Shown here piece after piece: positions 5,193 to 37,923 of a stretch of DNA of 38,547 nt; the stretch's first letter is position 1; each line of letters begins with the position of its first letter. A program made the translations under genes and the position numbers. The stretch is from Candidatus Parcubacteria bacterium (GTDB taxonomy: Bacteria; Patescibacteriota; Minisyncoccia; UBA6257; HR35), in NCBI GenBank assembly GCA_026004535.1, contig BPJI01000003.1:1-38547 (forward strand), given 5' to 3'. Below the pieces are notes generated by a model that was given only the letters and a program-made list of their open reading frames with translations, was not told the DNA's origin and searched no databases.

Positions 5193-5744
5193 ATGAATGG
5201 AGAAAAACCAAAGAAGAAAGTAGCAATTTATATTAGAATATCTACAGACATTGAGAAACAAAATTTAAATACCCAATTAGATCCATTAGTGGAGTATTGT
5301 AATAAAAATAACTATCAATATGAGATATTTCAAGATATAGCTTCTGGAGCAAAAGAATCAAGACCTAATTTAGATAAGCTTATGAGAATGATTAGAGAGC
5401 AAAAGTTTGATGCTTTGTTGGTCTGGAAAGTTGATAGGTTAGGTAGGAGCTTAAGACATTTATTACAAATATTACAAGAGCTAGAAAAGAATAAATGTGA
5501 CTTTATTTCTTTAACTGAAGGCTATGATACCTCCACACCACAAGGCAAATTAATATTTTCAATTGTTGGAGCCTTTGCTGAATTTGAAAGAGCAATAATA
5601 AGAGAAAGAGTTAAAGCAGGCATTATTAGAGCAATTAAAGAAGGAAAGAGGGTAGGTAGACCTGTTGGTTCTAAAGATAAGAAAAGAAGAAGGGTTTCTG
5701 GATACTTTTTAAGATGGCAGAATACACAACAAAAGACCTTATAA
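5193..5744 (+). CDS. Small serine recombinase (resolvase/invertase family)
   Basis: This is a 183-aa protein whose first 140 residues are a full catalytic domain: YIRISTD with nucleophile Ser17 and Arg15, the block WKVDRLGRSLRHLL, and FSIVGAFAEFERAIIRERVKAG leading into the long E helix. The usual C-terminal helix-turn-helix is not recognisable. After GRPVGSKDKKRRR comes only a short tail (SGYFLRWQNTQQ) that may bind DNA by its basic patch. Role by family: resolving dimers, inverting a segment or integrating. Two palindromic repeats just upstream are candidate sites. The start ATG follows a purine-rich stretch. The gene end overlaps the next gene by 31 bases. Unit 1 has CCT and unit 2 CCC at base 5366, both proline. 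Confidence 0.88.
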   Translation: MNGEKPKKKVAIYIRISTDIEKQNLNTQLDPLVEYCNKNNYQYEIFQDIASGAKESRPNLDKLMRMIREQKFDALLVWKVDRLGRSLRHLLQILQELEKNKCDFISLTEGYDTSTPQGKLIFSIVGAFAEFERAIIRERVKAGIIRAIKEGKRVGRPVGSKDKKRRRVSGYFLRWQNTQQKTL

Positions 5745-6234: not shown

Positions 6235-6762
6235 TTATAGTGGTGATCCGCCACCACCTCTACCGCCAAATCCAAACCCACCTGTTTGCCATATTCTTAC
6301 AAGGATTACAAGAACCCCTAGAATAAGAACAATAGCTGCTACAGAAAAGATTATAGGTAGTTTACTTGCTACTGTACTAACTCCAGAAGTCAAGTTGCCC
6401 GTTAAAGCCTTTGTTGCATTATCTTCAGCGCTTCCTGATGTAAGCAAACCAGAACCAGTTAATGTTGAAACAATCACAAAGGCTATAATAACACCTATAA
6501 CCAAAGCAACAACACCAAAGATAAGACTAGAAACAAGACCACCCGAAACACCTCTCTTATCTTTTTTAAGAGATTTTTGAAGAGGTATCAAAACAGCCAT
6601 AAACAAAATAGCAACACTAAAGATAGGATTAGAAACATCTTTTTCAAGGGACATCAAAACAACCATAAACAAGGCAACAACACCAAAGATAAGACTAGAA
6701 ACAAGACCACCCGAAACACCTCTCTTATCTTTTTTAAGAGACGTTGTTTGTTGAAGTTGCAT
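6235..6762 (-). CDS. Candidate major coat protein, two-helix hydrophobic, with duplicated N-terminus
   Basis: This is a 175-aa protein. Residues 8-31 and 64-87 are identical (KKDKRGVSGGLVSSL is part of each), from an in-frame 168-bp duplication. A degenerate middle copy lies between them. The C-terminal part has two hydrophobic helices (about 77-100 and 134-157) with a small Gly/Ser/Thr loop containing NAT, then a tail of Gly and Phe (GGFGFGGRGGGG). Two hydrophobic helices with a short polar loop is the known layout of spindle-shaped virus coat proteins (SSV1 VP1, which is cut from a longer precursor). The KR-GVSGG sites could be processing sites, as in archaeal pilin-like proteins, which are the main alternative. 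AGGAGG precedes the start, and the gene has its own TATA box, suggesting high expression. Confidence 0.6.
   Translation of the reverse strand: MQLQQTTSLKKDKRGVSGGLVSSLIFGVVALFMVVLMSLEKDVSNPIFSVAILFMAVLIPLQKSLKKDKRGVSGGLVSSLIFGVVALVIGVIIAFVIVSTLTGSGLLTSGSAEDNATKALTGNLTSGVSTVASKLPIIFSVAAIVLILGVLVILVRIWQTGGFGFGGRGGGGSPL
6506..6573. repeat. 68-bp direct repeat, copy a (coat gene)
   Basis: This stretch is identical over 68 bp to 6674-6741. The 168-bp period is 56 codons, so the frame is kept. It encodes the second KKDKRGVSGG block of the coat candidate. Confidence 0.9.
6674..6741. repeat. 68-bp direct repeat, copy b (coat gene)
   Basis: This is the partner of 6506-6573 and encodes the first KKDKRGVSGG block. 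Stretches near 6586-6634 and 6651-6700 are further, imperfect copies of the following part of the repeat, so the region grew by more than one duplication. Confidence 0.9.
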
Positions 6763-6825
6763 TTTTTCTATACCTATACCTCCTTTCAGCTCTATAAAAA
6801 CTTAATTAAACTAAAGAAAAAACGA

Positions 6826-6838
6826 TTTATAAATATAT
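6826..6838 (-). promoter_or_regulatory. TATA box of the coat-candidate gene
   Basis: On the minus strand this reads ATATATTTATAAA. It lies about 65 bases before the ATG, leaving a leader of about 35-40 bases that contains AAGGAGG. It gives the last leftward gene a promoter independent of the long operon upstream. Confidence 0.55.
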
Positions 6839-6855
6839 GTTTGAATGTTACGTTG

Positions 6856-7188
6856 TTACACTTCAGTAACTCTTCTGTCTAAAAATAACCATATAGCACA
6901 TAATAAATTAACCACAACAAGAATAGACAGCCAATCTATATTTATAAACCCAGATGTTAAGGATAAAATGAGACTGACTATAAGTGTAGATAATGAAGCC
7001 ATTAAAGCCCAAAAAGGATAATCAGCCTGACCTAATCTAGAAGACTGTCTATTTACCCCACTAAAAAATATAAAGAACCATATAAAAAAAAGAGTTAAAG
7101 GCACTAAAAAAGGCATGTTCGAGACTATTCCACCAATTAATGCGTCTGGTGTTGATACGTTTGTTGGTATTTCATATATATATGGCAT
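6856..7188 (-). CDS. Three-span membrane protein, 110 aa
   Basis: The N-terminus (PYIYEIPTNVSTPDALIGG) is polar, then helices lie at about 25-44, 59-80 and 85-103, with the loop VNRQSSRLGQADYPF between the first two. It ends in a charged DRRVTEV tail. It begins one base after the stop of the 143-aa gene upstream, so it is the last gene of the long leftward operon before the separately promoted coat candidate. Small multi-span proteins next to the coat gene are common in enveloped archaeal viruses and may be minor virion proteins. No specific family is identified. Confidence 0.65.
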   Translation of the reverse strand: MPYIYEIPTNVSTPDALIGGIVSNMPFLVPLTLFFIWFFIFFSGVNRQSSRLGQADYPFWALMASLSTLIVSLILSLTSGFINIDWLSILVVVNLLCAIWLFLDRRVTEV

Positions 7189-10664: not shown

Positions 10665-11200
10665 GGTAAATCCTCGCCTGTATCTTTTGTAAACATGAAA
10701 ATTCCAGTAATTAACCCTATAACAGCTAAAATATATGGTGAGTATAATATCAAATAATTAGATAAACTCTGCTCTTTAAGGTCTAAAGTGTTCTCTTGTG
10801 AAAGAAAATCTTGATAGGTGTTTGAAATAAATGCTGAAAGCACAATAAGGAAAATCATAAAAGCTAAATAAAAGAACAATAAATATCTTCTTTCAGAGGA
10901 ATAAAAACCAAAAATAACTATTGAAAAGATTAAACCACCTATATAAAATAAAGGAACAAGCCATTTTGTTGTATTTACTATTGTTTGGGCAGGTGTAAAC
11001 ACATAATTTGCCTTTTCAGTTAGATTAATTGGTGTGTCTGTTATTGAAATATTACCCAAATCATTGATTATTGGTGAAATTTCATTAAAACCTAAACGTA
11101 CTATTGAAGACACAAACAAAACAATTAATAGTACTATTAAAAAGGTTATAAGTAAAATACCGAACGCTAAAATCATCCCCATCCCTTTTTTATTTCTCAT
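10661..11200 (-). CDS. Four-span membrane protein, 179 aa
   Basis: Helices lie at about 9-33, 81-100, 107-125 and 149-171. The loop after the first helix (about 40-75) carries several NxT sequons and probably faces outside. The N-terminus RNKKGMGM resembles a class III pilin-type leader but the multi-span topology argues against a pilin. It overlaps the spike by ATGA and the small basic protein by 11 bases. Six of the eleven differences between the two units fall in this gene. Five are silent, and C11180T changes Met7 (unit 1) to Ile (unit 2). Function unknown; possibly a membrane partner of the spike. Confidence 0.65.
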   Translation of the reverse strand: MRNKKGMGMILAFGILLITFLIVLLIVLFVSSIVRLGFNEISPIINDLGNISITDTPINLTEKANYVFTPAQTIVNTTKWLVPLFYIGGLIFSIVIFGFYSSERRYLLFFYLAFMIFLIVLSAFISNTYQDFLSQENTLDLKEQSLSNYLILYSPYILAVIGLITGIFMFTKDTGEDLP

Positions 11201-11408
11201 TTTCTCTTCTCTTTGGTCTTGTTTTTAATTCTTCTAAACTTATTCTGTATCCATTCGTTCTTCTTAATAACCTAGTCATTTCAGGAAAACTCAACTCTCT
11301 TATGTTAAAATTTGCTAAACCTTTTTCTAATCTAATTTGCGCTATCTTTTTTAAATCCTCAAAAAAGTCAGGATCTACTCTAACTGGTGGTGTATTTTTT
11401 CTTTTCAT
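11190..11408 (-). CDS. Small basic protein, 72 aa, possible ribbon-helix-helix
   Basis: The protein is soluble and basic. PPVRVDPDFFEDLKKIAQIR is a short strand followed by a helix, and SFPEMTRLLRRTN is a second helix. A strand-helix-helix order of this kind is what a ribbon-helix-helix DNA-binding protein shows. It is the only clearly cytoplasmic, DNA-binding-like protein among the membrane and surface genes and is coupled on both sides (ATGA overlap upstream, 11-base overlap downstream). It might be a late repressor or a DNA-binding virion protein. The assignment to the fold is tentative. Confidence 0.6.
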   Translation of the reverse strand: MKRKNTPPVRVDPDFFEDLKKIAQIRLEKGLANFNIRELSFPEMTRLLRRTNGYRISLEELKTRPKRRENEK

Positions 11409-12130
11409 ATTCTTTGATTAAATAACCCCCTTTCAATCATTTTTTTCAATTCTCTATCTTCTTTAATTTTTATAAAAATTAAAATAAACCACATAATAAC
11501 CCCTAAAGGTAAAAATCCTAAAAAGATTCTAAATAAAGCAAATAAAAACTTACCCATAAGCTGATCATTAAGATAAGCAAACGAAACATTACTAGAGATA
11601 TAAAGTAAAGCAATAACAAAAAGATATTCAACAAAAATTAAAACCTGCCTAACATATTTTAAATAAGAAATCCCTAAAAATTCGCCATCTTTGTAATTAC
11701 TTGAAGGTAACTTCAAAATATAGAACAAATTCAGAACAAACAAAAATAAAATAACAAAAAAACCAATACTATAAATTATTGCTTGAGATGTTTTAAGCTC
11801 TTGACCAAAATAAGAAACTTCAAAAGTGTAACTCCATACTTCATTTACACCTGCTGGGTCACCAATACCCGTAACTTTATAAGTACCTATTTGTTTTGTT
11901 AATGAGCCATCTAAAGTATAATTAAAAACACTCCCATCTTTAGTCATTGGAACATTGCCAACTAATTTTGTGCCATTTGGAGCGATTATAGAAGTAATAT
12001 TAATGTATGTACAATCAGAACATGTTTGGACTAAATTTATATTTTGTCCTTGTTTGTAAACACCTATCGATGCGTAAATAAAATTAATAAAAAATACCAA
12101 GACTATTGGAATTATTATTTTCTTTTTCAT
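11405..12130 (-). CDS. Secreted-domain membrane protein, 241 aa
   Basis: I start this gene at the ATG at 12130, which overlaps the fibre stop as ATGA and puts a signal peptide (KKKIIIPIVLVFFINFIYA) at the front. The longer frame opens with TTG at 12151 and is less likely. Residues 21-115 form an extracellular beta-rich domain with two close cysteines (TCSDCTY) and a run IIAPNGTKLVGNVPMTKDGS typical of Ig-like surface modules. Helices follow at about 118-139, 160-180 and 193-220, with a charged cytoplasmic tail. Unit 2 has Thr instead of Ala at residue 198 (C11539T). Probably a membrane anchor or assembly partner for the fibre gene upstream. Confidence 0.65.
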   Translation of the reverse strand: MKKKIIIPIVLVFFINFIYASIGVYKQGQNINLVQTCSDCTYINITSIIAPNGTKLVGNVPMTKDGSVFNYTLDGSLTKQIGTYKVTGIGDPAGVNEVWSYTFEVSYFGQELKTSQAIIYSIGFFVILFLFVLNLFYILKLPSSNYKDGEFLGISYLKYVRQVLIFVEYLFVIALLYISSNVSFAYLNDQLMGKFLFALFRIFLGFLPLGVIMWFILIFIKIKEDRELKKMIERGLFNQRI

Positions 12131-15100
12131 TTTATCTGAACAGAGCACCAACTATATGTTGGATCTTTTAAACATAATTCTCCTTTAAGGAGTGATATTT
12201 GTGTTTGTAGTTGATTTATTTGTTTTTGTTGTTCTTGATTTTGTTTCCATAATTCAATAATCCAGTTTATACCATATATAACTCTTTTAAAACCAAATTC
12301 GTCTGTTTCAACCCATTCAGGATACATACTAGCTACATCATCAGCTAAGAAACCTTTTTGAATACCGCTTGGAAATGTATAATAAATATTTTCTGTTTTG
12401 TTTGTGCAGGTGCCTTTACTTAGAAGAGAACCATTTTCATCAAAAGTATCCTCTGTACATTCTAAATAACTTTTAACGCCCGCTAAAATTGAGGTGTTCT
12501 TATATTCAAATCTTTTTGGTGATAACAATAATAGTTTATTTAAGCTAACATTATATTCTTGAATATTCTTCTTTGTAGTTATATCAGAAACACAGCTCCC
12601 GCCGACAATTGTTCCATTTGATAGAGTATAACAACCCGTAATGTTAACATCACCAACAACAGTTAATTTAGCTGTTGGTGTTGTCGTCCCGATGCCGACG
12701 TTGCCTGTGTTCGTAATTCTAAACACCTCTGAATAAGAACCAGCCGGAGGTCTTCTGCGAATTGTGAAAGTATCTCCATTTGAATAAGTAAGGTGGTCGC
12801 TTCCTCCTATATCTACTGCCCAGCTTGACAAACCTGTATTTCCTTGGGATCCATCTGATTTTGTATTAGATTCTAGCGCCAAACCATTGTAGTTTGAGCT
12901 AACGCCAGAGTTAGAAATAATTCTAGAAAATCTGTTTGAAGCTACATTATGCGCTAATGTAAAAACTGGATCGCCAGAACCGTTAATCAAAATATTCCCA
13001 GCAACCTCTAACTTCGCCTGCGGGGTCGAGGTCCCGATGCCGACGTTGCCGCCAAGATAGATATTTGTAGTCCCACCAGGGATTGCTATGAGATCAACAC
13101 CATTTCTGTTTGTTATATCAACATCGTAAGTCGTACCGTTACCAGCAATCACAAGACCAGAACCAGAATTGTAATACATCACTCCTCCACTAAAAGCCCC
13201 GGGCCAACCTTGAGACGATGAAATTTTTAATCTTCCCGCAACTTCAAGTTTTTCATTCGGACTCGTCGTTCCAATGCCGACGTTGCCTGTGTTCGTAATT
13301 CTAAACACCTCTGAATAAGAACCAGCCGGAGGTCTTCTGCGAATTGTGAAAGTATCTCCATTTGAATAAGTAAGGTGGTCGCTTCCTCCTATATCTACTG
13401 CCCAGCTTGACAAACCTGTATTTCCTTGGGATCCATCTGATTTTGTATTAGATTCTAGCGCCAAACCATTGTAGTTTGAGCTAACGCCAGAGTTAGAAAT
13501 AATTCTAGAAAATCTGTTTGAAGCTACATTATGCGCTAATGTAAAAACTGGATCGCCAGAACCGTTAATCAAAATATTCCCAGCAACCTCTAACTTCGCC
13601 TGCGGGGTCGAGGTCCCGATGCCGACGTTGCCGCCAAGATAGATATTTGTAGTCCCACCAGGGATTGCTATGAGATCAACACCATTTCTGTTTGTTATAT
13701 CAACATCGTAAGTCGTACCGTTACCAGCAATCACAAGACCAGAACCAGAATTGTAATACATCACTCCTCCACTAAAAGCCCCGGGCCAACCTTGAGACGA
13801 TGAAATTTTTAATCTTCCCGCAACTTCAAGTTTTTCATTCGGACTCGTCGTTCCAATGCCGACTCTATCTGTATTGCTGTTCACAAAAAGCGTATTTGTG
13901 TCAACTGTGAAATTCTGTCCAACAACAACACTATTATTAAATGTCTTAGCTCCTGCAAAAGTCTGCGTTCCTGTAGAAACAACTCCTGATTGTGTTGCAG
14001 AAGCATCTCTTATTGTAACATTACTTGCGCTTGTAATTCTTCCTTGATTATCAACTGTGAATCTTCCCACTACAATATCTCCGCCATAAGTTCCTGCTGT
14101 TACTCCTGTGTTTGAAAGAGAGAAAGTTACATTTCCGCTGCCAACAAGTCTATCTGTCAGTGTTCCTGAAATTGACATGCCTGTTCCTTGGACAATAGAT
14201 CCTTTAACAAAACCAGCGCTTGTGTTAACTTCCTGAAGCTGACTTAATGTTACAGCATCCTGAGGGTTTGTTGCATTAGCAAGGTTGATGATTTTGTTAT
14301 TGTCCATGTTTATTGTTCCGTTGAAAACAGCAGAACCATTTACATGGAGTTTTTGTTGTGGTGTTGTCGTCCCGATGCCGACGTTACCTGTGTTTGAATT
14401 TACAAACAAGACATTAGAGCCTACTGTGAAATTCTGGCTAAAAACATAGTTTCCTGTAGTGATCGTGTCGCCACCTCTCAAAATATAATAAGTATCACCC
14501 TGTGTTTTATTTATGAAATTTAATGGGTTGGTTTTTGAATAATAAAGAGTATCAGCATAGGTTTTGTTAAAAGTAGCATAGGTGTCATTCCAAAAACCTA
14601 AATTATTTGTAAAGTTGCTTAAATGTGTATAGCCTCTATTACCTAAATCATCTATAAAGAAACTTAAATTAGTCGGTCTATCTGTAATATTTAACCACTT
14701 AGAAAGGACTAAATAATTTAAATTTTGAGCAGAAGTTGTATTCACATAACTATAAGGATTAGACTTAAGATAGTAATCATTTATATTAAAACTTGAAAGA
14801 TTATAGTAGCCAAAACTTAAAATTTCTGATTTTGTAAAATAATTCACTAGATTATTAACGGTATTGGTGATCCATTTGTCATAATTATTGTTTAAAGCAT
14901 TATAAGGTAATTGTTTGAGGTGGTAATATTCACCAACATCTCCACCCTGCAAACCTGTTAAATTATTATGAGCAACTTCTGTTGCATTTATTGTATAGTT
15001 ATTGTAATTAATAATTTTTAGAGCGTTTTTTGTAGATTCATCAAACCCAAACTGAGCTGAGACCGCCTGTAAAAGAAATAAAAATAAGAATAATAAAACA

Positions 15101-15878: not shown

Positions 15879-18379
15879 TTTCTTCTTGCTGATTGGATTT
15901 CAAATATTTCAGATAGTGTTGAAAGCCTATATTTTGGTTTTTCAATAAATATTACTCCAGATGTTGTTGTTTTTGTCTTAAATCCTTTTAACCTTAAATA
16001 TTTATTTATAGAAGGTATCTTAAAAGAGGCAGCTAATGTTTTTGAGGTTACTGATTTTCCAATTTGCAATGCTTCTTTAAATGTTTTCCCAGAACCAACA
16101 ACTTTAAAAACTCCTCCTCTCCTTACTAAAACAGGTATTGATGGAGTAATCTTTGTTGATTGTTTTATCTGTTTGAAAGAAAAGGTAAATCGTAGTTGGT
16201 TATCTATAGATGGAACGGGGATTCTTAGCGGCTGCGGTATTCTTGGGGTTTTAATTAATATTGTTCTTAAAAAGTTTCTTTGTTTTTGTTGCTGACTAAG
16301 TTTAGGGATTTGTAGTTGTATTGTTTTTTGTGTTTGATCTTGTAAATTTTGTTGTTGTGGTATTTGTATTTGTCTTGTTGTGAAATTAATTTTCTGTTTA
16401 GATGTTAAATTTTGACGCAAATTTTGTTGTTGAATGTTTATTTGATCAATCTTTTGATTTTGTTTTATTGGTTGTTTATAAGAAGGAATTTCAAAAACAC
16501 TAATTCTTTGCATAGAAATTTGTTTTGGTTGTGTTTTTTGTGTCGTTGTTGGCTCTGTTGTTATTGGTTTGATTGATATTGTTGTTTTTGTTTGCGCCTT
16601 ATAAACAGACTTGGCAGGTATTTCTTTTATAACACTTTGTAAAACATTTGTTGTTAATGATGATATTTGATTTTTATTTAATGATTTGAATTGATTTGGT
16701 GATTTCTCTGTTGTCTTTTCAAAATAAATTTTTCTTTTAAATAATCCTCTTAAATCAAGAGCAAAAACTGCAAAATTTGAACTCTTTACTGGTTTTGTTT
16801 GTTTACCTCTTTTTAAAATAGAGGTTTTAGAAGAACCAAAACTTAAAGATAATCTTTTGTATAAAGGAATATTAAATCCACCCGAGATAAATTCAGATGT
16901 TGTTGTTTTTGTCTGTCTTCTAATAATCCTACCTGTTGGGAACTCTAAACCATACCTAAAGTATGGCGTTTCAAAACTTTTTATTTTTCCACGAGAAACA
17001 GCCCCCTGTACTCTAACTATTCTTGAACCTTGAGGAAATCTAGCTAAAAAATTATTAAACATAACATCGGCTCTACCAACAAAACCAACTTTCCCACCTT
17101 TAGGTTCACTTATTTTTCCAATAAAGGTGGTTTTTGCTTGATTTTTTTGTATGTCTGTGACAATTTCTGATATTCGACCACTTCTTCCTAGATTAGTCTC
17201 AAAGGCTGTTTCAACCTTTATACCCCTCGCAGTTCTTGTCTCTCTAATAGTAGAAAAACCAGAAATACTTTCCTCCTTTATCATTGGTGTTCTTTTTGGA
17301 ATTAAAGGACCAACTACACGACCGCCTATTTTTCCAACACCCTTAAAGAAAACAATATCACCAGTAATTTTTCCTGCTGTGTATGAAGGATTAAGTCTTA
17401 CATCTCTTGAGAACTGACCACTTGCAAAATATTCGAGTTGAGAGGTAATTAAACCTGAAAATCTAGGGGGTATCGTTGGAATTGTTTGTCTTGGATTTGT
17501 TACTAACTCCTTTCCAAAAGTATAATAAGATTCACCTCTCATTGTGAATGAACCAACAAAACCAGCGGTGAATTGACTAACACTTGGAACAAAACCTCTT
17601 GATGTTGAGAACCTGGTTTTTGAGACTTCTGTATTTATTTTATTAAAAACCTGTTGAACGGGATCACCTTTAAATTCTACTACTTCTAAAGTTGGTCTAA
17701 CTTGAGAACGATAAAACTCCTTTTCCTCTGGAGTAGCTTCTCTAATAACTTGACCAGACTCACTTACTACAAAAACATTAGTAATTGGAACCTTCTTTTG
17801 ACCAACTTTAACTTCTTCTCCAAAGAATCTAAATAATGTCCTACCGCCAAATTTTTCTTCACTTATTACCCTCTCCTGAAGATAAACCTCTTGATTTGCT
17901 AATTTTCTATTTAAAAGAGACATTCTTAATTTTTGTTCTGTTGTTGTCGGTATTTCTTGATTTTGTTGTTGTAATGATCTTGCTAGAGCAATTTGCTGTA
18001 AATTATTAGGGACTGGAGTTTGTCTAGGATTAATATTTGGTGACATAGGAACTTCTCTAACACCACTAGGTGAAGAAGGATCAACTACTAATGTTCCACC
18101 ACCAACGCCTGTTCCAACTGGTGTTCCTGATCTTAATGATGAACCACCAGCTCGAGAAGGGGCAGATGGTCTAGGATTAATATTTGGTGACATAGGAACT
18201 TCTCTAACACCACTAGGTGAAGAAGGATCAACTACTAATGTTCCACCACCAACGCCTGTTCCAACTGGTGTTCCTGGTGGTAAAGAAGAAGATGGTTGTT
18301 TTGTTGGTTGAGATGGTTGTGTCGGTTGTTTTTGTGGTTTTCTTCTAAAAATTCTTCTTAATGTATCACCTATACCCAT
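15875..18379 (-). CDS. 834-aa repeat-rich protein, first gene of the late operon
   Basis: The short basic N-terminus (IGDTLRRIFRRKPQK) could bind nucleic acid or lipid heads. A Pro/Gln/Ser linker follows, then two near-identical 36-residue units (about 35-70 and 84-119; GTPVGTGVGGGTLVVD is the core). A middle part of about 400 residues contains strands and Gly-rich turns (PSYTAGKITGDIVFFKGVGK). A Gln/Lys/Thr-rich low-complexity region (about 560-700) precedes a C-terminal globular segment with VLVRRGGVFKVVGSGKTFKE. There is no signal peptide and no clear membrane helix. As the largest soluble protein of the operon, placed directly behind its promoter, it may be an internal virion or nucleoprotein. 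No family is recognised. Confidence 0.7.
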   Translation of the reverse strand: MGIGDTLRRIFRRKPQKQPTQPSQPTKQPSSSLPPGTPVGTGVGGGTLVVDPSSPSGVREVPMSPNINPRPSAPSRAGGSSLRSGTPVGTGVGGGTLVVDPSSPSGVREVPMSPNINPRQTPVPNNLQQIALARSLQQQNQEIPTTTEQKLRMSLLNRKLANQEVYLQERVISEEKFGGRTLFRFFGEEVKVGQKKVPITNVFVVSESGQVIREATPEEKEFYRSQVRPTLEVVEFKGDPVQQVFNKINTEVSKTRFSTSRGFVPSVSQFTAGFVGSFTMRGESYYTFGKELVTNPRQTIPTIPPRFSGLITSQLEYFASGQFSRDVRLNPSYTAGKITGDIVFFKGVGKIGGRVVGPLIPKRTPMIKEESISGFSTIRETRTARGIKVETAFETNLGRSGRISEIVTDIQKNQAKTTFIGKISEPKGGKVGFVGRADVMFNNFLARFPQGSRIVRVQGAVSRGKIKSFETPYFRYGLEFPTGRIIRRQTKTTTSEFISGGFNIPLYKRLSLSFGSSKTSILKRGKQTKPVKSSNFAVFALDLRGLFKRKIYFEKTTEKSPNQFKSLNKNQISSLTTNVLQSVIKEIPAKSVYKAQTKTTISIKPITTEPTTTQKTQPKQISMQRISVFEIPSYKQPIKQNQKIDQINIQQQNLRQNLTSKQKINFTTRQIQIPQQQNLQDQTQKTIQLQIPKLSQQQKQRNFLRTILIKTPRIPQPLRIPVPSIDNQLRFTFSFKQIKQSTKITPSIPVLVRRGGVFKVVGSGKTFKEALQIGKSVTSKTLAASFKIPSINKYLRLKGFKTKTTTSGVIFIEKPKYRLSTLSEIFEIQSARRK
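18022..18129. repeat. 108-bp direct repeat, copy a (834-aa gene)
   Basis: This repeat is identical to 18169-18276 at a spacing of 147 bp (49 codons). It contains the 25-bp segment CTAGGATTAATATTTGGTGA-CATAG that is duplicated once more in unit 2. Confidence 0.9.
18169..18276. repeat. 108-bp direct repeat, copy b (834-aa gene)
   Basis: Partner of 18022-18129. The pair makes this gene start prone to slippage and deletion, since loss of one unit would keep the frame. Confidence 0.9.
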
Positions 18380-18441
18380 TTAACTCTCTTTCACTTCCAC
18401 CCCCTTTAAAAAGTAACTATGTAACTTATATGTCTTTCAAG

Positions 18442-25495: not shown

Positions 25496-26023
25496 TTATA
25501 GTGGTGATCCGCCACCACCTCTACCGCCAAATCCAAACCCACCTGTTTGCCATATTCTTACAAGGATTACAAGAACCCCTAGAATAAGAACAATAGCTGC
25601 TACAGAAAAGATTATAGGTAGTTTACTTGCTACTGTACTAACTCCAGAAGTCAAGTTGCCCGTTAAAGCCTTTGTTGCATTATCTTCAGCGCTTCCTGAT
25701 GTAAGCAAACCAGAACCAGTTAATGTTGAAACAATCACAAAGGCTATAATAACACCTATAACCAAAGCAACAACACCAAAGATAAGACTAGAAACAAGAC
25801 CACCCGAAACACCTCTCTTATCTTTTTTAAGAGATTTTTGAAGAGGTATCAAAACAGCCATAAACAAAATAGCAACACTAAAGATAGGATTAGAAACATC
25901 TTTTTCAAGGGACATCAAAACAACCATAAACAAGGCAACAACACCAAAGATAAGACTAGAAACAAGACCACCCGAAACACCTCTCTTATCTTTTTTAAGA
26001 GACGTTGTTTGTTGAAGTTGCAT
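25496..26023 (-). CDS. Candidate major coat protein, unit 2
   Basis: Identical to the protein at 6235-6762. The 68-bp repeats lie at 25767-25834 and 25935-26002 and have not been lost or expanded between units. Confidence 0.6.
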   Translation of the reverse strand: MQLQQTTSLKKDKRGVSGGLVSSLIFGVVALFMVVLMSLEKDVSNPIFSVAILFMAVLIPLQKSLKKDKRGVSGGLVSSLIFGVVALVIGVIIAFVIVSTLTGSGLLTSGSAEDNATKALTGNLTSGVSTVASKLPIIFSVAAIVLILGVLVILVRIWQTGGFGFGGRGGGGSPL

Positions 26024-26099: not shown

Positions 26100-26116
26100 G
26101 TTTGAATGTTACGTTG

Positions 26117-26449
26117 TTACACTTCAGTAACTCTTCTGTCTAAAAATAACCATATAGCACATAATAAATTAACCACAACAAGAATAGACAGCCAATCTAT
26201 ATTTATAAACCCAGATGTTAAGGATAAAATGAGACTGACTATAAGTGTAGATAATGAAGCCATTAAAGCCCAAAAAGGATAATCAGCCTGACCTAATCTA
26301 GAAGACTGTCTATTTACCCCACTAAAAAATATAAAGAACCATATAAAAAAAAGAGTTAAAGGCACTAAAAAAGGCATGTTCGAGACTATTCCACCAATTA
26401 ATGCGTCTGGTGTTGATACGTTTGTTGGTATTTCATATATATATGGCAT
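26117..26449 (-). CDS. Three-span membrane protein, 110 aa, unit 2
   Basis: Identical to the protein at 6856-7188. Confidence 0.65.
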   Translation of the reverse strand: MPYIYEIPTNVSTPDALIGGIVSNMPFLVPLTLFFIWFFIFFSGVNRQSSRLGQADYPFWALMASLSTLIVSLILSLTSGFINIDWLSILVVVNLLCAIWLFLDRRVTEV

Positions 26450-35139: not shown

Positions 35140-37284
35140 TTTCTTCTTGCTGATTGGATTTCAAATATTTCAGATAGTGTTGAAAGCCTATATTTTGGTT
35201 TTTCAATAAATATTACTCCAGATGTTGTTGTTTTTGTCTTAAATCCTTTTAACCTTAAATATTTATTTATAGAAGGTATCTTAAAAGAGGCAGCTAATGT
35301 TTTTGAGGTTACTGATTTTCCAATTTGCAATGCTTCTTTAAATGTTTTCCCAGAACCAACAACTTTAAAAACTCCTCCTCTCCTTACTAAAACAGGTATT
35401 GATGGAGTAATCTTTGTTGATTGTTTTATCTGTTTGAAAGAAAAGGTAAATCGTAGTTGGTTATCTATAGATGGAACGGGGATTCTTAGCGGCTGCGGTA
35501 TTCTTGGGGTTTTAATTAATATTGTTCTTAAAAAGTTTCTTTGTTTTTGTTGCTGACTAAGTTTAGGGATTTGCAGTTGTATTGTTTTTTGTGTTTGATC
35601 TTGTAAATTTTGTTGTTGTGGTATTTGTATTTGTCTTGTTGTGAAATTAATTTTCTGTTTAGATGTTAAATTTTGACGCAAATTTTGTTGTTGAATGTTT
35701 ATTTGATCAATCTTTTGATTTTGTTTTATTGGTTGTTTATAAGAAGGAATTTCAAAAACACTAATTCTTTGCATAGAAATTTGTTTTGGTTGTGTTTTTT
35801 GTGTCGTTGTTGGCTCTGTTGTTATTGGTTTGATTGATATTGTTGTTTTTGTTTGCGCCTTATAAACAGACTTGGCAGGTATTTCTTTTATAACACTTTG
35901 TAAAACATTTGTTGTTAATGATGATATTTGATTTTTATTTAATGATTTGAATTGATTTGGTGATTTCTCTGTTGTCTTTTCAAAATAAATTTTTCTTTTA
36001 AATAATCCTCTTAAATCAAGAGCAAAAACTGCAAAATTTGAACTCTTTACTGGTTTTGTTTGTTTACCTCTTTTTAAAATAGAGGTTTTAGAAGAACCAA
36101 AACTTAAAGATAATCTTTTGTATAAAGGAATATTAAATCCACCCGAGATAAATTCAGATGTTGTTGTTTTTGTCTGTCTTCTAATAATCCTACCTGTTGG
36201 GAACTCTAAACCATACCTAAAGTATGGCGTTTCAAAACTTTTTATTTTTCCACGAGAAACAGCCCCCTGTACTCTAACTATTCTTGAACCTTGAGGAAAT
36301 CTAGCTAAAAAATTATTAAACATAACATCGGCTCTACCAACAAAACCAACTTTCCCACCTTTAGGTTCACTTATTTTTCCAATAAAGGTGGTTTTTGCTT
36401 GATTTTTTTGTATGTCTGTGACAATTTCTGATATTCGACCACTTCTTCCTAGATTAGTCTCAAAGGCTGTTTCAACCTTTATACCCCTCGCAGTTCTTGT
36501 CTCTCTAATAGTAGAAAAACCAGAAATACTTTCCTCCTTTATCATTGGTGTTCTTTTTGGAATTAAAGGACCAACTACACGACCGCCTATTTTTCCAACA
36601 CCCTTAAAGAAAACAATATCACCAGTAATTTTTCCTGCCGTGTATGAAGGATTAAGTCTTACATCTCTTGAGAACTGACCACTTGCAAAATATTCGAGTT
36701 GAGAGGTAATTAAACCTGAAAATCTAGGGGGTATCGTTGGAATTGTTTGTCTTGGATTTGTTACTAACTCCTTTCCAAAAGTATAATAAGATTCACCTCT
36801 CATTGTGAATGAACCAACAAAACCAGCGGTGAATTGACTAACACTTGGAACAAAACCTCTTGATGTTGAGAACCTGGTTTTTGAGACTTCTGTATTTATT
36901 TTATTAAAAACCTGTTGAACGGGATCACCTTTAAATTCTACTACTTCTAAAGTTGGTCTAACTTGAGAACGATAAAACTCCTTTTCCTCTGGAGTAGCTT
37001 CTCTAATAACTTGACCAGACTCACTTACTACAAAAACATTAGTAATTGGAACCTTCTTTTGACCAACTTTAACTTCTTCTCCAAAGAATCTAAATAATGT
37101 CCTACCGCCAAATTTTTCTTCACTTATTACCCTCTCCTGAAGATAAACCTCTTGATTTGCTAATTTTCTATTTAAAAGAGACATTCTTAATTTTTGTTCT
37201 GTTGTTGTCGGTATTTCTTGATTTTGTTGTTGTAATGATCTTGCTAGAGCAATTTGCTGTAAATTATTAGGGACTGGAGTTTGT

Positions 37285-37334
37285 CTAGGATTAATATTTG
37301 GTGACATAGCTAGGATTAATATTTGGTGACATAG
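37285..37334. repeat. 25-bp tandem duplication, unit 2 only
   Basis: Two adjoining perfect copies, 37285-37309 and 37310-37334. The same 25 bases also occur in the 108-bp repeat nearby (37457-37481), so template slippage or recombination between repeats can create it. Confidence 0.95.
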
Positions 37335-37454
37335 GAACTTCTCTAACACCACTAGGTGAAGAAGGATCAACTACTAATGTTCCACCACCAACGCCTGTTC
37401 CAACTGGTGTTCCTGATCTTAATGATGAACCACCAGCTCGAGAAGGGGCAGATG

Positions 37455-37562
37455 GTCTAGGATTAATATTTGGTGACATAGGAACTTCTCTAACACCACT
37501 AGGTGAAGAAGGATCAACTACTAATGTTCCACCACCAACGCCTGTTCCAACTGGTGTTCCTG
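37455..37562. repeat. 108-bp direct repeat, copy b, unit 2
   Basis: This corresponds to 18169-18276. Its partner begins at 37283 and is interrupted by the 25-bp duplication. Confidence 0.85.
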
Positions 37563-37665
37563 GTGGTAAAGAAGAAGATGGTTGTTTTGTTGGTTGAGAT
37601 GGTTGTGTCGGTTGTTTTTGTGGTTTTCTTCTAAAAATTCTTCTTAATGTATCACCTATACCCAT

Positions 37666-37923
37666 TTAACTCTCTTTCACTTCCACCCCCTTTAAAAAGT
37701 AACTATGTAACTTATATGTCTTTCAAGTATATATATTTTTCTATTTTTGTTTTTTTGATTTTTTCTTTTTCTTCTCTTCTTTTTTCACAAAGAGGGGCGT
37801 ATCTGTATAAGATTCTCTTCTTCGTTCCCAATATGTTTTCATTTTAAAAACTTATTTTTATTATTATAAAATAATCACTAAAATTTATAAATGTTTTTCT
37901 TTTTATATTACTTAATTTTTTTA
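37666..37923. promoter_or_regulatory. 258-bp divergent promoter region, unit 2
   Basis: Same as 18380-18637, with TATA boxes at 37728-37738 (leftward) and 37884-37892 (rightward). Confidence 0.65.

Follow-up and report, generated by a model that had tools for sequence, protein, structure and literature searches.

A probable coat protein in a small, virus-like circular element associated with a tiny archaeon carries a lineage-specific copy of its leader and first helix

The window, by which we mean the whole 38,547-nt stretch of DNA analyzed here, is a contig that reads through a 19,261-bp circular element twice, forming a head-to-tail dimer. The two genome copies are 99.8% identical and differ by 11 substitutions, 8 of which fall in 10928-12662, and by one 25-nt insertion. 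The dimeric contig belongs to an 844-kb genome bin, a size typical of an archaeon. The element is small, circular and virus-like, is found with a tiny archaeon and represents an uncharacterized virus family; a literature search on viruses of Pacearchaeota found nothing specific among the papers covered. Besides the gene considered here, the genome carries genes for a large spike protein and for an ATPase. It holds two other in-frame tandem repeats. The 1007-aa fibre gene, which has YadA-stalk and S74 chaperone matches, contains an in-frame 582-bp duplication at 12683-13281 and 13265-13863 (99.7% identical), and an 834-aa protein carries an in-frame 147-bp tandem repeat (18022-18276 and 37283-37590). 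A 25-nt tandem duplication is present only in genome copy 2, where it breaks the 834-aa ORF.

The gene under study lies on the minus strand, with the following features.

6235..6762, minus strand: coat-candidate gene of 175 aa, an ORF with homologues and an identical second copy at 25496-26023.
6652..6741, minus strand: repeat unit U1 (residues 8-37, 90 bp, SLKKDKRGVSGG), a leader plus an extra hydrophobic segment a; its first 68 bp (6674-6741) are identical to U3, and AF2 predicts a helix at 16-39.
6574..6651, minus strand: repeat unit U2 (residues 38-63, 78 bp), a diverged copy with an extra hydrophobic segment b; 52/66 nt match U1, and AF2 predicts a helix at 46-67.
6484..6573, minus strand: unit U3 (residues 64-93), a leader plus the genuine TM helix 1, which can be aligned in every homologue; the second of the identical blocks lies at 6506-6573.
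6235..6570, minus strand: conserved coat core (residues 65-175) as aligned to homologues, with TM1, a loop with sequons N115 and N123, TM2 and a Gly-rich tail.
6778..6783, minus strand: Shine-Dalgarno sequence GGAGGT before M1, with equivalent sites before the homologues' start codons.
6824..6838, minus strand: putative archaeal TATA element ATATATTTATAAATC, picked out by eye.
6847..6859, minus strand: 13-bp box GTWACAWYGTWAC ahead of the coat gene, conserved at this position in five relatives (L003, L004, L005, L015, L023).

The start of the gene is laid out as three tandem leader-plus-helix units of 90 nt, 78 nt and the genuine TM1. Two identical 68-bp blocks, at 6506-6573 and 6674-6741, lie in frame within the ORF at 6235-6762 (minus strand) at a lag of 168. 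The original prediction that they flank a weaker copy was borne out, since both blocks are exact and the intervening U2 resembles U1 (79% DNA identity; z 13.9 against codon shuffles). It had also described the arrangement as an in-frame 168-bp duplication; the frame and the lag hold, but a full 168-bp unit was not duplicated. At this lag U1 and U3 are 100% identical over 68 bp, ~62% identical over the 37 bp that follow and at chance level thereafter. A single recent 168-bp duplication is ruled out because identity ends after 68 bp and the middle unit is diverged. U1 reads SLKKDKRGVSGGLVSSLIFGVVALFMVVLM and U2 reads SLEKD-VSNPIFSVAILFMAVLIPLQK, from which the eight residues KRGVSGGL (24 nt) are absent; a derived tail, FMxVL, is common to the two. 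Helix 2 and U2 are not similar (z 0.9), which rules out U2 as a remnant of TM2.

To place this protein, we compared it with homologues in seven related, uncharacterized circular elements from Pacearchaeota MAGs and IMG/VR (L003/L006, L004, L005 (=JAFCGI010000012), L015, L023, L025 and L070); the records JAFCGI010000012 and NZCB01000034 are named Candidatus Pacearchaeota, other relatives lie in IMG/VR contigs, and one more record (JAUVLT) is labelled Mycoplasmatota. The homologues align to residues 65-175 only. In every relative found the same protein begins at the second leader, and complete short forms are ~100-112 aa long. The extension amounts to ~56 aa at the start of the probable coat protein. 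The leader repeat is absent from all homologues in the seven elements, and a search with the extension alone found no relative. An unduplicated homologue of ~119 aa had been anticipated; one exists in kind, in these short forms, so a 175-aa layout is not shared across the family. On the sequences compared, the extension is a lineage-specific duplication that the known relatives do not have.

The remainder of the protein is typical of its family. It is 52-62% identical to the short forms of L003-L005, carries the family motifs in TM1 (LVIGVIIAFVIVSTL) and TM2 (AIVLILGVL with WQ), and is encoded in the family position, downstream of the spike and of the 143-aa and 110-aa genes and with its own GGAGGT start. 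All relatives share a homologous coat and 110-aa protein, and the gene order around the coat is the same; the 143-aa protein, spike, ATPase or resolvase are present where the fetched stretch covers those genes. A single-sequence scan of the 143-aa protein gave no match, and an alignment-based comparison was used instead. Unlike the present element, the related Pacearchaeota-associated elements lack a leader duplication; in most of them two coat genes lie in tandem (L004 has a single one), and some have an ~80-aa loop insert. This insert lies in the outer loop of the second paralogue (L006:84-626 and L015:9767-10384), has many N-glycosylation sequons and is possibly a decoration domain. In the tandem pair at L005:9995-10596, two blocks (52 and 115 bp) are identical while the loop has diverged; from these alignments, the pair is a fresh whole-gene duplication. 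L018 (G541/L018) was ruled out as a coat relative, being an unrelated 272-aa pilin-like protein, and other weak matches in the relatives' genomes were short, low-scoring and hydrophobic and were set aside.

We infer that this family of short two-helix hydrophobic proteins, encoded beside a large spike-like protein in circular elements of Pacearchaeota-like archaea, is the major coat protein. The name 'coat' draws on the size of the protein and its two-helix form, on its sequons, on the gene neighbourhood and on the tandem paralogues because neither fold nor sequence comparison found a match in PDB (Foldseek, PDB sequence search) or BFVD. The closest likeness is to VP1/VP3 of the Fuselloviridae (SSV1 and relatives), which are small two-helix hydrophobic proteins with loop sequons and tandem paralogues, in genomes that also encode a large spike protein and an ATPase. 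As in VP1, two hydrophobic helices are joined by a sequon-bearing turn in our low-confidence models, and the SSV1 annotation places a 61-bp direct repeat between its VP1 region and VP3. In putative spindle-shaped viruses of ammonia-oxidising archaea, the candidate coat is also a short alpha-hairpin with glycosylation sites on its turn, identified without proteomics; that coat has remote similarity to SSV19 VP1 (PMC10866085), whereas the present one has no PDB or BFVD match.

Maturation of fusellovirus VP1 removes a soluble N-terminal part by a cut at a conserved Glu (PMC5748691), and the original prediction took the repeat for a cleavage region of this type in a relative of VP1. Our results support neither the kinship nor such a cleavage region. 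Profile homology to fusellovirus VP1/VP3 was undetected (hhalign probability 0.5%), tblastn gave no match in a phage collection, the candidate lacks the conserved Glu that in VP1 marks the mature N-terminus behind a soluble propeptide, and a propeptide is missing from the relatives altogether. In SSV1 VP1 the propeptide is a soluble, charged stretch with the conserved Glu at its end, whereas the present extension is a hydrophobic self-copy.

The extension is expected to be translated because a GGAGGT stands ahead of M1, like those before the relatives' starts, while none of the internal methionines M33, M37 and M55 of the coat ORF has a ribosome site; a 121-aa form initiated at M55 was ruled out for this reason. 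Further upstream, the 13-bp box GTWACAWYGTWAC has a one-mismatch copy at 18413-18425, ahead of the 834-aa gene that opens the minus-strand virion operon, with the corresponding copies of the second genome at 26108-26120 and 37699-37711. The box was not found in 569 kb of host DNA and is likely the operator of a viral regulator.

AF2 modelling of the 175-aa protein, at low confidence (mean pLDDT 65, pTM 0.33, built from 11 sequences), gave helices at 16-39 and 46-67 in the extension and at 74-103, 113-132 and 135-162 in the core; the core of a relative modelled alone formed two long helices. KD peaks reach 2.6 and 2.1 in the extension, whereas each core helix peaks at 3.1. Both leaders are flanked by positive charge, and the only sequons are those of the core loop. 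An extra membrane span had been anticipated, and hydrophobic segments are indeed added, but these low-confidence helices number two rather than one. The extension is thus predicted to preserve the topology of an intact coat: because it would go out and back, fitting the charges and sequons, the core would keep its orientation.

With moderate confidence, we favor the interpretation that the protein consists of an intact core plus an in-frame U1-U2 copy, translated from M1 and folded as an extra helical hairpin that is retained on the coat. This explanation is backed by the identical blocks, their presence in both genome variants, the seven relatives without the extension, the GGAGGT before M1 and the AF2 helices. 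With the inherited ribosome site directing initiation at M1, the extension would be made, and the chain would run from KKDKR inside, out through helix a, around the EKD turn, back in through helix b and to the second KKDKR inside. The core would keep its native topology and still assemble. Most likely the hairpin is not a functional propeptide but remains attached, its two additional membrane or shell helices being tolerated by the coat. The extension is present in one lineage only and may therefore be a transient state. How simple archaeal hairpin coat proteins gain length and parts has so far been poorly seen, and this family shows three routes of growth: whole-gene tandem duplication, an outer-loop insert, and duplication in frame of the leader together with helix 1. 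As a lineage-specific variant in an uncharacterized virus family, the present protein is a real but modest example of archaeal coat growth, and it makes a case for asking whether an extra hydrophobic hairpin is built into the shell or must be cut away.

Removal of the extension is the first alternative to weigh, and we consider it possible but rather unlikely. Here residues 1-71 would be cut off to leave a mature coat of ~104 aa, the likeliest enzyme being the host prepilin peptidase acting after KRG (G71/V72) rather than an SSV1-like cut at Glu. Consistent with such processing, in most relatives the start of TM1 coincides with [KR][GA]/Q[TSM], the host bin encodes a prepilin peptidase (Peptidase_A24; PF01478, 43.9 bits) together with pilin-like proteins that have KG/Q leaders, the product would equal the relatives' coats in length, and N-terminal cutting is known for fusellovirus VP1 (PMC5748691). 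From the motif, cleavage after KRG71 is possible. However, the site in the 175-aa protein reads KRG-V with no Glu at +5, which departs from a class III (prepilin-like) signal, no class III signal Pfam model matched, and the cleavage motif would sit behind the inserted hairpin. The prepilin-peptidase route stays a minority hypothesis because V replaces Q here and the distant relative L070 lacks the [KR][GA]-Q motif.

We infer that the extension arose through tandem-copying recombination, with at least two duplications and a recent homogenization of U1 with U3. These events fit the repeat units best because the match between U1 and U3, perfect over 68 bp, drops to ~62% in the 37 bp that follow. 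The leader and helix start would have been copied first, the tail would have diverged, and a second copy would have been made from it; 24 nt would then have been lost and U1 recently homogenized with U3, an order drawn from a single genome. Short-range exact repeats of ≥40 bp are ~10x denser in the element (3 in 19 kb) than in host DNA (~8 loci in a 569-kb sample). Such a repeat-rich genome, like the recent coat-gene duplication of L005, speaks for an origin by recombination. The repeats also lend support to a neutral reading, in which the duplication would be a transient by-product of the element's recombination, reversible through the 68-bp blocks to a 119-aa coat. We regard neutrality as unlikely overall. 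In keeping with it, the genome holds other young tandem duplications, including the 25-nt one seen in only one copy, the extension is found nowhere else, and neutral expectations were not rejected: none of 10 changed codons between repeats was synonymous (0/10; neutral P 0.08, not significant), and retention of hydrophobicity in the extension was not significant either (P 0.24-0.34). Positive selection and maintained hydrophobicity were set aside on the same tests. Against neutrality, the U1 tail and U2 have diverged to ~79% DNA identity, so the duplication is not brand new, yet its reading frame has stayed open and the extension persists in both genome variants.

Less probable still is that the extension serves as a built-in second coat hairpin. 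A loop-less mini-hairpin and a full hairpin would then replace two separate coat genes, giving a covalently linked pair as the shell unit. We also doubt strongly that the gene descends from two tandem coat paralogues, of which the first shrank to U1-U2 and became joined in frame to the second. Most relatives do have two tandem coats, and their leader halves can be homogenized (the 52-bp and 115-bp identical blocks of L005; also L023 and L070), but U2 is like U1 (z 13.9) and unlike TM2 (z 0.9) and is therefore not a coat gene's second half, and the single coat gene of L004 occurs without fusion. That the repeat is an assembly artefact is scarcely credible, even though the contig is an unresolved dimer, because the coat gene and its surroundings are identical over 900 bp in both genome copies, which differ elsewhere, and because mis-assembly cannot create the divergence of U2.

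Two further observations concern the wider family. L023 (JAUVLT010000066.1) is an archaeal-virus-like contig within a bin labelled Mycoplasmatota, a placement that is probably due to mis-binning. No SSV-type integrase was identified in the element, which instead has a gene at 5193-5744 for a serine resolvase N-terminal-domain protein (PF00239), with similar genes in L015 and L070; this protein is possibly the element's resolution or integration enzyme.
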